This document shows, one piece after another, positions 16,828 through 53,787 of a DNA stretch of 64,000 nucleotides. Origin of the DNA: Exiguobacterium alkaliphilum 12/1. Its GTDB lineage: Bacteria > Bacillota > Bacilli > Exiguobacteriales > Exiguobacteriaceae. The first letter of the stretch is position 1, and every line of letters begins with the position of its first letter. The stretch lies in assembly GCF_000714435.1 (NCBI RefSeq), contig NZ_JJMW01000058.1, positions 1 to 64,000 on the forward strand, given 5' to 3'. Under the pieces are notes generated by a model. It saw only the letters and a program-made list of their open reading frames with translations. It ran no database searches and had not been told where the DNA came from. Both the position numbers and the translations under genes were made by a program.

Positions 16828-18543
16828 GTGAAACGACTGCAAGCCCTCGCGTTAGCTGAAAAGCGGCACATCATCGGCCTCGTCATCGCGGCCGTCATGA
16901 TCGGTTTGTCGATTTTAGCCCAAGCCTATTTAATCGTCGACGTCGTCGACCGTGTCTTCTTACAAAATCAATCGTTTGAAAGCGTCCTTCCGGCGCTCGG
17001 TTGGCTCGTCGTCGCGCTTCTCGTCCGGGCGTTGTTCGGTTACGTCTCGGGACGCATCGGTGCGAGCCTGTCAGAGAAGGCGAAGCGGTCGCTTCGACGT
17101 CAACTCTTGGATCGTTATACGTCGAACCCGGTGGAGACGTCGCTCTCGGGACAATCCGGTAAGAAAGTGAGCGTATACATGGACGCCGTCGACGAGGTAG
17201 ACGCCTACTTCAGCCAATATTGGCCCCAAGTGATTCAGACGTCGATTATTCCGCTCCTCATTCTCATCGTCGTCTTCACCCAACATTGGATCTCGGGCGT
17301 CATCATGATGGTGACGGCGCCGTTCATCCCGATTTTCTTCATCATCATCGGGATTGCGACGCAGAAGAAATCGGAACAACAGATGGAGAAGATGAACCAG
17401 TTCTCTGGTAAGTTTTTAGACGTCTTGCAAGGACTGACAACGCTGAAGCTATATGGACGGACGGAGCGAGAAGCGCAAGCCATCGAGAAGAGCAGCCTCG
17501 ACTTCCGAGACGCGACGATGGTCGTCTTGAAGACGGCGTTCTTGTCCGGACTCATGCTCGAGTTCATCTCGATGCTCAGTACCGGTGTCGTCGCCCTTGA
17601 AGTGGCGCTCCAAATGGTCGTCTGGCAGAACTTGACGTTTTTCGCCGGCTTTCTCATTCTCGTCTTGGCCCCTGAATATTACTTGGCCATCAAAGACCTC
17701 GGTGGCGCGTTCCATACGGGACGTGGCAGCATGGGTGCGGCCGATCGAATCTTTGAAGCGCTCGACGCCCCGGATGATCGCATCGTGTGGGGTGAGCGCG
17801 TGCTGACGAACCGGACCCCTGAGCTTCGACTCGAGGAGGCGTCGTTCCAATATCAGGGCGGTCGCTTCACCTTGCAGCCGCTCAACGCTACGATTCCGGC
17901 GCGGTCACATATCGCATTGGTCGGGGCGAGCGGGTCAGGGAAGACGACGGTGTTAAATCTTCTTTCCGGGCTCGTCAATCCCGATACGGGTCGCGTCCTC
18001 GTCGACGGGAAGCCGCTCCACTCGTATACGGACACGTCGTGGTACGGCACGGTCGGCTATATCTCGCAGACCCCGTACTTGTTCGCTGGGACGCTCGCTG
18101 ACAATATCGCCCTCGGCGAGACGGCTGACGAAGCGGCGATCATGCGCGCGGCCGAAGCGGCCGGCCTCGTCGACGTGATTCGCCATTTGCCGGACGGGCT
18201 ATACACCGAACTCGGTGAGGGCGGCTACGGCTTGTCTGGCGGCGAGCGGCAACGGCTCGCGTTGGCCCGCGCCTTCTTGAAACGGCCGGGCATCATCTTG
18301 TTCGATGAGCCGACGACCGGTCTCGACTTGATGACCGAGCAAATCGTGCGCCGCTCGATCGAAGAGTTGTCGCGCGACGCGACGCTCGTCACGGTCGCCC
18401 ATCGTCTGCATACGATCAAGCAGGCGGATGCGATTTGGTTCATGGACAACGGGACGCTCGTCGCGAGCGGGACGCATGAACAGATGCTCCATGCCCCGGC
18501 TTATGCCGACTTATTCACGTTACAGAAAGGAGTGAGAGGATGA
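16828..18543 (+). CDS. cydD: Thiol reductant ABC exporter subunit CydD
   Basis: A 571-residue half-transporter: six membrane helices (about 15-300) then an ATPase domain with Walker A GASGSGKTTVLNLLSG (about 366), signature LSGGERQRLALARA (about 469) and Walker B IILFDEPTTGLD. CydDC exports cysteine or glutathione-type thiols and is needed for assembly of cytochrome bd oxidase. The start is GTG 16828, nine bases after AAAGG; upstream TTG/ATG codons crowd the ribosome binding site. It overlaps cydC by 4 bases. cydAB is not in this window. Confidence 0.92.
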   Translation: MKRLQALALAEKRHIIGLVIAAVMIGLSILAQAYLIVDVVDRVFLQNQSFESVLPALGWLVVALLVRALFGYVSGRIGASLSEKAKRSLRRQLLDRYTSNPVETSLSGQSGKKVSVYMDAVDEVDAYFSQYWPQVIQTSIIPLLILIVVFTQHWISGVIMMVTAPFIPIFFIIIGIATQKKSEQQMEKMNQFSGKFLDVLQGLTTLKLYGRTEREAQAIEKSSLDFRDATMVVLKTAFLSGLMLEFISMLSTGVVALEVALQMVVWQNLTFFAGFLILVLAPEYYLAIKDLGGAFHTGRGSMGAADRIFEALDAPDDRIVWGERVLTNRTPELRLEEASFQYQGGRFTLQPLNATIPARSHIALVGASGSGKTTVLNLLSGLVNPDTGRVLVDGKPLHSYTDTSWYGTVGYISQTPYLFAGTLADNIALGETADEAAIMRAAEAAGLVDVIRHLPDGLYTELGEGGYGLSGGERQRLALARAFLKRPGIILFDEPTTGLDLMTEQIVRRSIEELSRDATLVTVAHRLHTIKQADAIWFMDNGTLVASGTHEQMLHAPAYADLFTLQKGVRG

Positions 18544-20255
18544 GTTCCCTTTGGACGATCACGAAATGGATGATGCGAGAGAAGAAGGATATCGTCCTCT
18601 CCATCTTCTTTGGATACGTGGCGGGACTTGCCGCCGTCGCCTTATTCGCGGCGAGCGGATACCTCGTCGCGCGGGCCGGCCTCGTACCACCGCTCTACGC
18701 GCTTATGATTCCCGTCGTCTTAATCAAACTGTTCGGTGTCATCCGAGCGAGCGCGCGGTATCAAGAGCGACTCGCCTCGCACCGGGCGACGTTCACCATT
18801 TTGAGTGAGCTCCGTGTCCGGTTTTATCGACAGCTCGAACCACTCGTCCCGAATATCTTCGCGAAATATCGAAGCGGTGACTTACTCGCGCGCGTCGTCG
18901 GGGACGTGGAGAGCTTACAGAACTACTTTTTACGCGTCTTCTATCCACCAATTATTTTAGTGCTCGTCTTCTTGAGCACCATCTTTTTCGTCACGTACTT
19001 CTCAATTTTCGTCAGTCTCTGGATTTTGTTCGGTGTCTTCGTGACTGGCTTCTTGATCCCGGCTTTCTTCGCCCGTGTCCGAGCCCGACACGACCGCAAA
19101 CTGCGGTCGCTTCGTGGTGATTTGTCGAGCGGGATGACGGAGATGATGTATGGCTATCGTGACTTGTTGCTGCATCAACATCTCGGAAAGACGAAGCAAG
19201 ACTTGATGGAGCGGAGCGACCGCTACGTGGCGGCCGAGCGTGAAGATGTGACGAGCCAGTTCTTCAACTCCTCGCTCGTCGTCGGTACGTCATTGCTCGT
19301 CTCGTGGGGTGTGCTCGCGATTGGTGCTTACTTGGTCGTCGGTGGAGAGCTTGACGGCTTGTTCCTCGCCATGCTCATCATGATGTCGCTCACGGCGTTT
19401 GAGAACGCGACGCCGATGGCCGTCTTCCCAGGTCACTTTGCCGACAGCAAACAGGCGGCCGACCGCTTGTTTGAGGTCGTGGCACCGAGTGAAGCAATGG
19501 AGCAAGCTGAAGCGGCAAGACGCGACATCTCGCTTCAAGGGGCACCTGAGATTACTATCAGCCGTGTGAACTATCGGTATCCGGACACGTTCCGCGACGT
19601 CCTCGTCGACGTCGATGCGGTGTTCCCGAGCGGGTCGAAGACGGCGATCGTCGGGCCGAGCGGCTCGGGGAAATCGACGCTCCTCCAAATGCTCCTCGCT
19701 TTCATCCGTCCAGACGAAGGCGACGTCTTCATCGACGAGGCACGACTCGACGACATCGCACAGGCGTCGATTTGGGAGCATGCGAGCGTCGTCCTTCAAG
19801 AGAACCATTTCTTCTTCGGGACGGTGCGCGACAATTTGGCGCTTGCCGGTGAACACACGGACGAGGCGATGACGAGAGCGCTCAGTAGCGTCCGGCTCGG
19901 CTTCTCGCTCGATGAACCGGTGCTTGAGAAAGGCGCCAACTTGTCGGGTGGGGAACGCCAGCGGCTCGCGATTGCCCGGGCGCTACTCAAAAACGGCTCG
20001 CTCTGGCTACTCGACGAGGCGACGTCAGCGCTCGATGCGCGGACCGAGGCGGACGTGTACGCCGAGATGTTCGACACAGCACAGGCTTCGACGCTCGTCA
20101 TGGTCAGCCACCGTCTGAACGGGCTCGAGGCGTTCGATCAAATCATCGTCATGGAAGCCGGGCGCGTCATCGAGACCGGTTCATTCGATGAGTTGATGCA
20201 GGCGCGCGGCACGTTCTATGCGTTGAAACAAATCGAACAAGATGTATTCGCCTAA
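18540..20255 (+). CDS. cydC: Thiol reductant ABC exporter subunit CydC
   Basis: A 571-residue half-transporter, partner of CydD in a heterodimer. Six N-terminal helices (including FAASGYLVARAGL), then an ATPase domain with Walker A GPSGSGKSTLLQML (about 373), signature NLSGGERQRLAIARAL and Walker B WLLDEATSALD. Start ATG overlaps the cydD stop (ATGA), implying translational coupling. The operon ends at a strong hairpin directly after the stop. Assigned CydC rather than CydD from gene order and the N-terminal ASGYLVARAG pattern. Confidence 0.9.
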   Translation: MSSLWTITKWMMREKKDIVLSIFFGYVAGLAAVALFAASGYLVARAGLVPPLYALMIPVVLIKLFGVIRASARYQERLASHRATFTILSELRVRFYRQLEPLVPNIFAKYRSGDLLARVVGDVESLQNYFLRVFYPPIILVLVFLSTIFFVTYFSIFVSLWILFGVFVTGFLIPAFFARVRARHDRKLRSLRGDLSSGMTEMMYGYRDLLLHQHLGKTKQDLMERSDRYVAAEREDVTSQFFNSSLVVGTSLLVSWGVLAIGAYLVVGGELDGLFLAMLIMMSLTAFENATPMAVFPGHFADSKQAADRLFEVVAPSEAMEQAEAARRDISLQGAPEITISRVNYRYPDTFRDVLVDVDAVFPSGSKTAIVGPSGSGKSTLLQMLLAFIRPDEGDVFIDEARLDDIAQASIWEHASVVLQENHFFFGTVRDNLALAGEHTDEAMTRALSSVRLGFSLDEPVLEKGANLSGGERQRLAIARALLKNGSLWLLDEATSALDARTEADVYAEMFDTAQASTLVMVSHRLNGLEAFDQIIVMEAGRVIETGSFDELMQARGTFYALKQIEQDVFA

Positions 20256-20257
20256 AC

Positions 20258-20420
20258 GAAAAGCGAGCGGCTCCGTCGGAGAGCCGCTCGCTTTTTCATA
20301 TGGCAAATCTGGGTGCAACAAATGGTGGTTGTCGCATTGCTTTCAAAAAGAGTGTCGTGGAGGGGAATCCACGTGACGCATGCGTTTGGGGAACGAGCGC
20401 GTCAAGCTTTTGGGAGCTAC
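20258..20420 (-). ncRNA. Candidate Fur-controlled small RNA with C-rich loops
   Basis: A minus-strand transcript of about 160 nt is predicted from the promoter at 20427-20456 (start near 20420) to the hairpin at 20293-20261. Three small hairpins present C-rich loops on that strand: arms AGCT/AGCT with CCCAAA (20405-20418), CGTT/AACG with CCCC(A) (20383-20395) and CGTGGA/TCCACG with TTCCCC (20356-20373). C-rich loops that pair with Shine-Dalgarno sequences are the hallmark of the Fur-regulated iron-sparing RNAs FsrA (Bacillus) and IsrR (Staphylococcus). I saw no open frame with a ribosome binding site. No sequence identity to either RNA is claimed. Confidence 0.6.
20259..20296. terminator. bidirectional terminator (cydC and candidate sRNA)
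   Basis: A 13-bp stem: AAGCGAGCGGCTC (20261-20273) with GAGCCGCTCGCTT (20281-20293). Rightward it is followed by five T; leftward by TTTTCG, so it can also end the minus-strand transcript described below. Confidence 0.88.
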
Positions 20421-20426
20421 AAGTCG

Positions 20427-20456
20427 AGTATAAGTGATAACGATTCTCATTGTCAA
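20427..20456 (-). promoter_or_regulatory. SigA promoter overlapped by a Fur box
   Basis: On the minus strand TTGACA (20456-20451), an 18-base spacer and TATACT (20432-20427) make a near-consensus promoter. The spacer and -35 carry a Fur box: on the plus strand TGATAACGATTCTCA (20435-20449) matches the 7-1-7 box TGATAAT-N-ATTATCA at 12 of 14 defined positions, and the 19-bp form (20436-20454) at 16 of 19. Fur would block it when iron is sufficient. Confidence 0.75.
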
Positions 20457-20506: not shown

Positions 20507-21031
20507 TCAGTTTGACGGGACGCCTTTACTGAGCGTGAACCGGAGCAAGCTGAACAGATAGCGGATATAAAATAACGCGAACGCGTAAAAGACGGCGATA
20601 ATTGGAGAGGCGATATTGACGCCTGGAATATTCAATAGAAACTCGAAGACGAGAATCGAGAGTAAGAAGACATAGAGGCTTGCATCGAGATAGAGCGGCA
20701 TCACGTTTCCGCGCTGGTGCCAGAACGTGCGCACGAGCGGAGCGACAATCATGCCGATGATGCGTTCGGCGAACCCGATGCTCAAGACGGCGATGAGGAA
20801 AGATGCAACCGCATCGAATCCGATGAGACGCGGGAAGGCGAACATCGAAATGAGCAAGAGCGGTCCGATAAAAATCATCATGGAGATCGAGGTGCGTAAA
20901 AAGATGAACAAGTTCCGCTTTAACGTATCGACTCCCCCAAAGAGCGATTGGCGGAACGTCTTACCGCGTTGATAATCGAGGACGAAAGATCCCACGAACA
21001 TCAACCCAAATAGTGATAACAAGACTGTCAT
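20507..21031 (-). CDS. Hypothetical multi-pass membrane protein
   Basis: 174 residues with about five hydrophobic helices (around residues 3-17, 48-68, 73-97, 117-135 and 137-160), separated by short polar loops such as DYQRGKTFRQ. No family recognised. AAAGGGG precedes ATG 21031 and a good terminator follows, so it is a real single gene. Neighbours (a Fur-type promoter on one side and a GGDEF cyclase on the other) do not tell its job. Confidence 0.75.
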   Translation of the reverse strand: MTVLLSLFGLMFVGSFVLDYQRGKTFRQSLFGGVDTLKRNLFIFLRTSISMMIFIGPLLLISMFAFPRLIGFDAVASFLIAVLSIGFAERIIGMIVAPLVRTFWHQRGNVMPLYLDASLYVFLLSILVFEFLLNIPGVNIASPIIAVFYAFALFYIRYLFSLLRFTLSKGVPSN

Positions 21032-36225: not shown

Positions 36226-36512
36226 TAACTTAATTGAAACGAACAAAGGCGTTGACGAAGAGAAGTAACGACAGGCCCCGCATGACAGAGAGCTGATGGT
36301 TGGTGTGAATCAGTATGTGGGACGTCGCGAATGGACTTCCGAGCTCTAAACCGAAACTTTGAGTAGGCTTTAGCGGGTGACCCACCGTTATCACGGGGAA
36401 GCGGATGATCGTCCGTGAAGTGGGTTCTACGGAACCAACGAAGGTGGCACCACGGGGTTACTCGTCCTTCTCATAGCGTAAGCTATGGGTAGGCGAGTGA
36501 CCCTTTTTTCGT
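36226..36512 (+). promoter_or_regulatory. T-box leader 1 (tRNA-Trp)
   Basis: A full T-box leader: long Stem I starting around GAGAGCTGATGG with the likely specifier TGG in GCGAATGGACTTCC (about 36337-36350), the T-box AAGGTGGCACCACGGGG (36441-36457) and a terminator (36454-36509, arms GGGTTACTCG and CGAGTGACCC, then six T). Uncharged tRNA-Trp would pair with TGG and the T-box to allow read-through. The start is estimated from the promoter. Confidence 0.88.
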
Positions 36513-36530
36513 TTCACATAGAAAATCGAT

Positions 36531-36778
36531 GATTGAGAAGAGTAGCATGGAGCAGTCTCGTCCAGAGAGTCAGGGGTGGTGAGATCCTGACCGAGACCTT
36601 TATGCGAATGGGCTCATGAGAGCACGTCCGAATGCAGTAGGTCGTGACGGTTTCCCCCGTTATCGGGATACGATGTGATTGCATCGGAAAAAGCGGGATC
36701 TACGCATGATCCAACGAGAGGTGGCACCGCGGTCCATACCGTCCTCCATACGACAGACGTCGTATGGAGTTTTTTTGT
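36531..36778 (+). promoter_or_regulatory. T-box leader 2 (tRNA-Trp), in tandem
   Basis: A second complete T-box: Stem I from about 36535, specifier TGG in ATGCGAATGGGCTC, the T-box GAGGTGGCACCGCGGTCC (36718-36735) and terminator CTCCATACGAC (36744-36754) with GTCGTATGGAG (36759-36769) plus seven T. Tandem Trp T-boxes give a steeper response to Trp starvation and are known before trp operons in the Bacillus cereus group. Confidence 0.9.
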
Positions 36779-53275: not shown

Positions 53276-53428
53276 CAAACAAAAAATGACCCCATGCCGA
53301 GGCAAGAGGTCATCATAAAAAATGAACTCTTATCTCTCAGCGTCTGCTGCAAGAATTAGCACCGTGCCCAATCGGGTCGGTTGCTGCGACATCATCGGGC
53401 TTGTCCCTCCGTCTGCTCTTGATAAGAA
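53276..53428 (-). promoter_or_regulatory. SAM-I riboswitch (S-box) of mtnWXBD
   Basis: Aptamer on the minus strand from 53428 to 53327: TTATCAAGAGCAGACGGAGGGA, then GCCCGATGA, CAGCAACC, CACGGTGCTAATTC and closing GAGAGATAAGAG. The terminator follows at 53313-53276 (arms around TGACCCCATGCC and GGCAAGAGGTCA, then six T). SAM binding stops transcription. Confidence 0.95.
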
Positions 53429-53570
53429 TATGATTTGAAGTTGTGAAATTTAATTGAATTTTTGCACAGAATCGTCACAGCGTCAATTCCTTTTTTTGAA
53501 AATTTTTTATTTTAGAAATTTGTTTCCATATATGCAAACAAAAAGTGACTCGATGCTCAAAAAAACAGCG

Positions 53571-53600
53571 TTGACAACCAGGGCGTCGACTCCGTAATAT
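53571..53600 (+). promoter_or_regulatory. promoter of mtnKA and the ABC importer
   Basis: TTGACA (53571-53576), an 18-base spacer and TAATAT (53595-53600), about 30 bases before the S-box. The AT-rich 53429-53570 segment should also hold the divergent mtnW promoter, which I could place only loosely. Confidence 0.7.
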
Positions 53601-53630
53601 TCAGCTCATAGTCACACAAATCGAATAACA

Positions 53631-53787
53631 CACTCTTATCGCGAGTTGGCAGAGGGAATTGGCCCGATGACGCCGCAGCAACCGACCAGTACGGCACGGT
53701 GCTACATCCACCAGACGAATGTCTGAAAGATGAGAGGAACAACCAATCTGGCTGTGCCTCTTTCTCGCGGAGAAAGGGGCTTTTTTT
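53631..53787 (+). promoter_or_regulatory. SAM-I riboswitch (S-box) of mtnKA and the ABC importer
   Basis: Aptamer 53633-53736: CTCTTATCGCGAG, GCAGAGGGA, GGCCCGATGA, GCAGCAACCG, GCACGGTGCTAC and closing GATGAGAG. Terminator GCCTCTTTCTC (53756-53766) with GAGAAAGGGGC (53770-53780) and seven T. SAM would switch the operon off. Confidence 0.95.

Follow-up and report, generated by a model that had tools for sequence, protein, structure and literature searches.

A Fur-box promoter that faces cydC

What does a promoter transcribe when it points at the end of a convergent gene and has no protein-coding sequence of its own? Such a promoter lies beyond cydC in the window (the whole 64,000-nucleotide stretch of DNA that was analyzed), and a sequence-only reading of the region had proposed that it drives a small RNA controlled by Fur. 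We found no protein gene between the promoter and cydC, in keeping with that proposal. The features of the locus are these:

18540–20255, plus strand: cydC, the convergent neighbor (NCBIfam TIGR02868, above cut-off)
20258–20420, minus strand: predicted small RNA gene of about 162 nt, with a start near 20420 predicted from the spacing to the −10
20259–20295, minus strand: intrinsic terminator hairpin, a 16-bp stem and then a U run, from the fold and from covariation in four pairs
20314–20336, minus strand: stem-loop D, loop ACCACCA (ACCCCCA in relatives), seen in folds
20339–20350, minus strand: linker CUUUUUGAAAGC, complementary at all 12 nt to GCUUUCAAAAAG of the citB leader
20356–20373, minus strand: stem-loop C, loop UUCCCC, with a stem identical in all genomes and a near-invariant loop
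20374–20404, minus strand: stem-loop B, loop GUUCCCCAAAC, with a covarying stem (three pairs changed on both sides) and an invariant loop
20427–20456, minus strand: σA-type promoter TTGACA-18-TATACT, hexamers at 20456–20451 and 20432–20427
20435–20449, minus strand: Fur box core TGAGAATCGTTATCA, 12 of 14 defined positions (13 of 14 in three relatives)
20507–21031, minus strand: upstream, co-directional gene for a 174-aa membrane-like protein without a Pfam match

The promoter is present as described, matching the consensus at 11 of 12 positions, and so is the 7-1-7 Fur box, which is the only site in the window with two or fewer mismatches. The box had been placed over both the spacer and the −35; the 15-bp core does lie inside the spacer, but the −35 is reached only by an upstream extension of the box (TGACAATGA). 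Upstream, a terminator-like hairpin (20498–20474) separates the promoter from the 174-aa gene. Fur boxes of this quality are rare: 1.2 Mb of one close relative held four others with two or fewer mismatches, and among 100 shuffled windows nine had one Fur-like site, the mean being 0.1 per window.

The closest relative of this promoter in the same genome (32 bases, 91% identical) is found 39 bases in front of a lipoprotein gene, which is thus preceded by the same Fur box and promoter. Judging from its sequence, the lipoprotein (locus L021) is a substrate-binding protein for iron–siderophores that falls below the NCBIfam cut-offs for an exact substrate, and the permease genes divergent from it are FecCD-like, a label that reflects our own judgement. 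Three proteins of the FUR family are encoded above cut-off in the genome; one is Fur by NCBIfam, and from sequence we would judge the remaining pair to be similar to PerR and Zur.

A predicted structured RNA conserved throughout the genus

The predicted RNA, from 20420 to 20259, folds at −61.0 kcal/mol as compared with −35.9 ± 3.4 kcal/mol for shuffled sequences (z = −7.5), and none of 200 dinucleotide shuffles was as stable, in agreement with the structured transcript of about 160 nt that had been anticipated. The terminal hairpin had been given 13 bp and proves to be longer, with a stem of 16 bp; its copy on the plus strand stands directly after cydC. All three of the C-rich elements that had been assigned to hairpin loops are present, but one of them, CCCAAA, lies in a weakly paired 5′ segment and not in a loop, and the C-rich loop of stem-loop D had been missed. 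Rfam at gathering scores recognized nothing in the whole window but two T-boxes and two SAM riboswitches, all outside the small RNA, and a permissive scan of the small RNA region gave chance-level matches only. The two T-box leaders are in tandem, 47 bases apart (36243–36749), and the riboswitches, separated by about 200 bases, diverge from each other on the two strands (53327–53736).

We found the small RNA, by blastn of relatives and with a covariance model (R1), in all 19 genomes of the GTDB genus, which is the Exiguobacterium aurantiacum/aestuarii/profundum/chiriqhucha group and whose members are related to one another. By blastn the element was present in none of 12 Bacilli of other genera. 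A scan of the GTDB genome set for an exact 20-base core returned 13 stretches, all from Exiguobacterium (aurantiacum, aestuarii, profundum, chiriqhucha, qingdaonense, and further strains). Loss of the Fur box and the C-rich loops in close relatives had been named as grounds for abandoning the proposal; both are near-invariant in the 19 genomes. In the alignment, the −35 hexamer is invariant and the block from −35 to −10 has a mean identity of 96% (18 genomes), and the corresponding values are 99% for stem-loop C, 98% for the linker, and 97% for stem-loop D. Identity is lower in the 38-base stretch that precedes the promoter (63%), in the discriminator (76%), and at the coding end of cydC (84%).

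The fold is supported by covariation. Seven pairs changed on both sides, as compared with none or one when the partners were slid by one to three columns, and cells with changes on both sides numbered 29 against 8 in shuffles. The compensatory pairs are located in the first stem of hairpin B and in the terminator. Hairpin C is constant, and so is most of hairpin D, which would be expected if sequence, and not shape alone, is used.

Three further observations on the small RNA may be mentioned. The window's own copy of loop D (20322–20328) reads ACCACCA, and all aligned relatives have CCCC or CCCCC at this place. Loop D and the linker that follows it (20299–20336) read GACAACCCCCAUUUGUUGCACCCA...UUUGCCA in relatives and are strongly conserved, and no convincing target match was found for this part. 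In one genome (L012, G002:C4 near 189369) sequence of foreign appearance, with an inverted repeat and a U run of its own, interrupts the terminator hairpin behind the first arm; the remainder of the gene is intact.

Predicted pairing with citB and sdhC

Target prediction against the Shine-Dalgarno regions of iron-protein genes had been proposed as a check. As known targets of both FsrA and IsrR (PMC8464778, PMC11257911), citB and sdhC were picked in advance. In 18 of the 19 genomes the citB leader has GCUUUCAAAAAG directly before a GGGGG Shine-Dalgarno sequence, and in the remaining genome (G011) it differs by one change. This sequence is the exact complement of nucleotides 71–82 of the small RNA, that is, of the linker. 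At 12 nt this match is the longest of all perfect matches at 1,081 gene starts, a length that only 2 of 5,000 shuffled RNAs reached; the gene starts were drawn with a simple home-made gene caller from sampled stretches amounting to about 41% of one close relative (G013, L115–L174) and part of a second, with citB and sdhC added. When the same kind of helix at the same position was required in two diverged genomes (G013 and G004), citB ranked first of 247, above 246 other orthologues, and sdhC ranked 23rd.

Each genome's own pair of small RNA and citB leader gives a bipartite duplex of −19.2 to −25.6 kcal/mol (19 of 19), in which the linker helix is joined by the CCCC loop over the Shine-Dalgarno sequence with 11–12 bases of the small RNA bulged out between the two. 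The check thus returned citB with a conserved bipartite complement. The accompanying idea, that C-rich loops block Shine-Dalgarno sites, would apply to the second half of this pairing; the main contact with citB would be made by the linker, which is not C-rich. Because an unconstrained duplex search produced meaningless full-length duplexes, we used short-window and contiguous-helix scoring instead. On contiguous-helix energies from one genome, citB came 24th and sdhC 267th of 1,097; these low ranks reflect the many Shine-Dalgarno sites that are GGGGG and so fit C-rich loops. Sites of the GGGGG type would make the C-rich loops promiscuous, which may explain why specificity resides in the linker. 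Many genes in the sampled stretches of G013 have such sites.

A probable second candidate is sdhC, whose GGGGAAC at the Shine-Dalgarno site would pair with the loop CGUUCCCC; its complementarity is weaker than that of citB, which is conserved in all 19 genomes. The target scan also brought up nadA as a further candidate. We set aside gltD, whose site the other clade has lost, so that it is not conserved across the genus, and a nitrate-reductase-like gene that is present in only 7 of the 19 genomes and nearly identical there.

A model for iron sparing

We interpret the element as a trans-acting, Fur-repressed small RNA that spares iron by pairing with iron-enzyme messages, a reading to which we give a probability of about 0.82, with transcription, binding by Fur, repression, and the direction of the effect all predicted from sequence. 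Under iron-replete conditions Fur would occupy the promoter box and silence the gene, as the box and the promoter shared with the lipoprotein gene suggest. When iron is low, the RNA of about 162 nt would be made, ending at its own terminator, and would pair with mRNAs for iron enzymes at the ribosome-binding site and block their translation. On the message for aconitase, a 4Fe-4S enzyme encoded by citB, the linker would zip onto GCUUUCAAAAAG first, and the UUCCCC loop would then cover the adjoining GGGGGAA of the Shine-Dalgarno sequence, the intervening stem being looped out. The message of sdhC (succinate dehydrogenase) would be a second target, through loop CGUUCCCC. The outcome would be a sparing of iron, as with FsrA and IsrR, and the model predicts that the tricarboxylic acid cycle of these extremophiles is rewired when iron is scarce.

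Alternative explanations

Four other accounts of the locus were weighed against this model. In the first, the small RNA is real and under Fur control but has another main role, with other targets or as an RNA sponge, and the citB match is incidental. Loop D and the linker after it are conserved as well as the citB-pairing part, yet no target match was found for them, and the C-rich loops fit many genes. We nevertheless consider this account unlikely, for of all matches in the sample that of citB is the longest, and its site occurs in both clades, sits exactly at the Shine-Dalgarno sequence, and is missing from the sister genus.

It is very improbable that the product is a small peptide (x-RQPPFVAP..., start near 20337) translated from a short mRNA made by the Fur promoter. 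The stretch that would encode it is free of frame-breaking indels, and the CCC to CCA change in the window is synonymous in its frame. However, no reading frame is conserved across the genus alignment of the small RNA: in this frame L010, a relative, is terminated at its third codon (CGA TAA), the sequences begin with ATG, with TTG, or with no start codon at all (ACG in L019), the stops are not common to the relatives, and no Shine-Dalgarno sequence is visible, while other frames are broken by 1-nt indels. We rejected the peptide for its premature stop in that relative and for want of a constant start or stop.

We give equally little credence to an action in cis on cydC, whether as antisense or by control of terminator read-through. 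The two genes converge and the terminator hairpin is common to both strands, but the predicted transcript ends short of the cydC stop codon, none of its hairpin loops falls within cydC, and overlap with cydC does not explain the conservation of loops in the intergenic region. Finally, that no gene exists here and promoter-like and hairpin-like sequence arose by chance is effectively refuted by conservation throughout the genus, covariation, and the fold z-score, even though 9% of shuffled windows have one Fur-like site in 64 kb.

Relation to FsrA, IsrR, and RyhB

The iron-sparing model places the RNA in a known functional class, in that it has a conserved promoter Fur box and is non-coding and structured, with its own terminator. 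FsrA of Bacillus subtilis is controlled by Fur and uses C-rich single-stranded regions against the ribosome-binding sites of targets that include citB and sdhCAB (PMC8464778). The Exiguobacterium RNA is like it in its Fur box, in its C-rich regions directed at ribosome-binding sites, and in its predicted targets citB and sdhC. It differs in length (about 162 nt predicted, FsrA being 84 nt) and in that an A/U-rich linker, pairing next to the Shine-Dalgarno sequence, would make the leading contact with citB. With the covariance model of FsrA (Rfam RF02273), none of the 19 genomes of the genus rose above the gathering cut-off, the weak matches lying elsewhere in the genomes, and the window had no match; one control genome exceeded the cut-off, and B. 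subtilis was among the controls that gave a signal.

IsrR of Staphylococcus has three stem-loops and a terminator in about 170 nt, C-rich regions, a Fur box in its promoter, conservation throughout its genus, and citB and sdh among its targets (PMC9410917, PMC11257911). The Exiguobacterium RNA shares the stem-loops with terminator, similar length, C-rich regions, promoter Fur box, and genus-wide conservation, and citB and sdhC are among its predicted targets. Unlike IsrR, which has a second Fur box just after its start, it has a single box with two or fewer mismatches (20435–20449), and its neighborhood, cydDC, is different. Model R1 gave no strong match in 399 genomes of Bacilli outside the genus, IsrR itself being compared by description only.

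Rfam scans of the window showed no sequence relation to RyhB or PrrF. These proteobacterial RNAs need Hfq. They are Fur-repressed small RNAs that lower aconitase and succinate dehydrogenase (PMC9410917).

On the evidence, the RNA would work like FsrA and IsrR, and the comparisons made (the RF02273 model for FsrA, description for IsrR) do not establish homology to either. The idea of a functional analogue in this lineage is upheld, and homology to FsrA is not, as far as the RF02273 search goes (below cut-off in 19 of 19 genomes). FsrA-type logic, which had been put forward at the outset, is well supported as a prediction by the conserved Fur box, the C-rich loops, and the citB complement.

A search confined to the open-access literature found no report of an Exiguobacterium RNA of this kind. 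Fur-controlled iron-sparing RNAs are, to our knowledge, found in few Gram-positive groups only and have no common sequence. Our verdict is that the element is a genuine new, lineage-specific member, by prediction, of this functional class of iron-sparing small RNAs. A third, unrelated-looking case in Bacilli would show that the iron-sparing circuit is readily reinvented.

The sister genus and a possible origin of the small RNA

The sister genus is represented by 19 genomes, whose cydC is 53–56% identical. The covariance model gave no match at their cydC locus, no Fur box was present in the stretches after cydC (forward-strand loci read), and the linker site was found in none of the 19 citB leaders, which end in ACACUUAAAGGGGGAAUC or similar. 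One genus thus has the small RNA and its citB site, and its sister has neither, the RNA being judged at the cydC locus. This is a single evolutionary contrast and not 19, and the two lineages, with and without both partners, form a clean pair for studying how a regulatory RNA and the site that it targets come into being.

Covariance matches in the sister genus and in other Bacilli had E values of about 1e-7 to 0.1. Those fetched from the sister genus were rejected as homologues, being away from cydDC and without an adjoining Fur box. Several others, which covered the terminator hairpin only or both strands of one place, were treated as hairpin matches, and two of the best matches in other families were checked for a Fur box and cydC.

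One sister genome, G374, has a near-identical Fur promoter (L308, G374:C1 near 197625; 26 of 29 positions over the −35, Fur box, and −10, a likeness to be read in light of the fact that Fur-box promoters are alike anyway) that drives a gene of the nitroreductase family. It lies downstream of a homologue of the window's 174-aa gene (35%, E = 5e-33). The simplest reading, which rests on this one genome, is re-use of that Fur promoter to express an RNA in the present lineage. We suggest tentatively, at somewhat less than even odds, that a new family of iron-sparing RNAs arose in one Exiguobacterium lineage when an existing Fur promoter was taken over and its protein gene replaced. If true, the logic of a Fur-repressed iron-sparing RNA would have been invented independently three times in Bacilli, counting FsrA and IsrR.

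In both genera (L175–L193 and L286–L304), we note, the citB leaders contain a further block, TAAGCGATTACG (TAAGCGGTATCAGGGGCTTGAT in the sister genus), that is conserved some 35–55 bases before the start and is possibly the site of a regulator.
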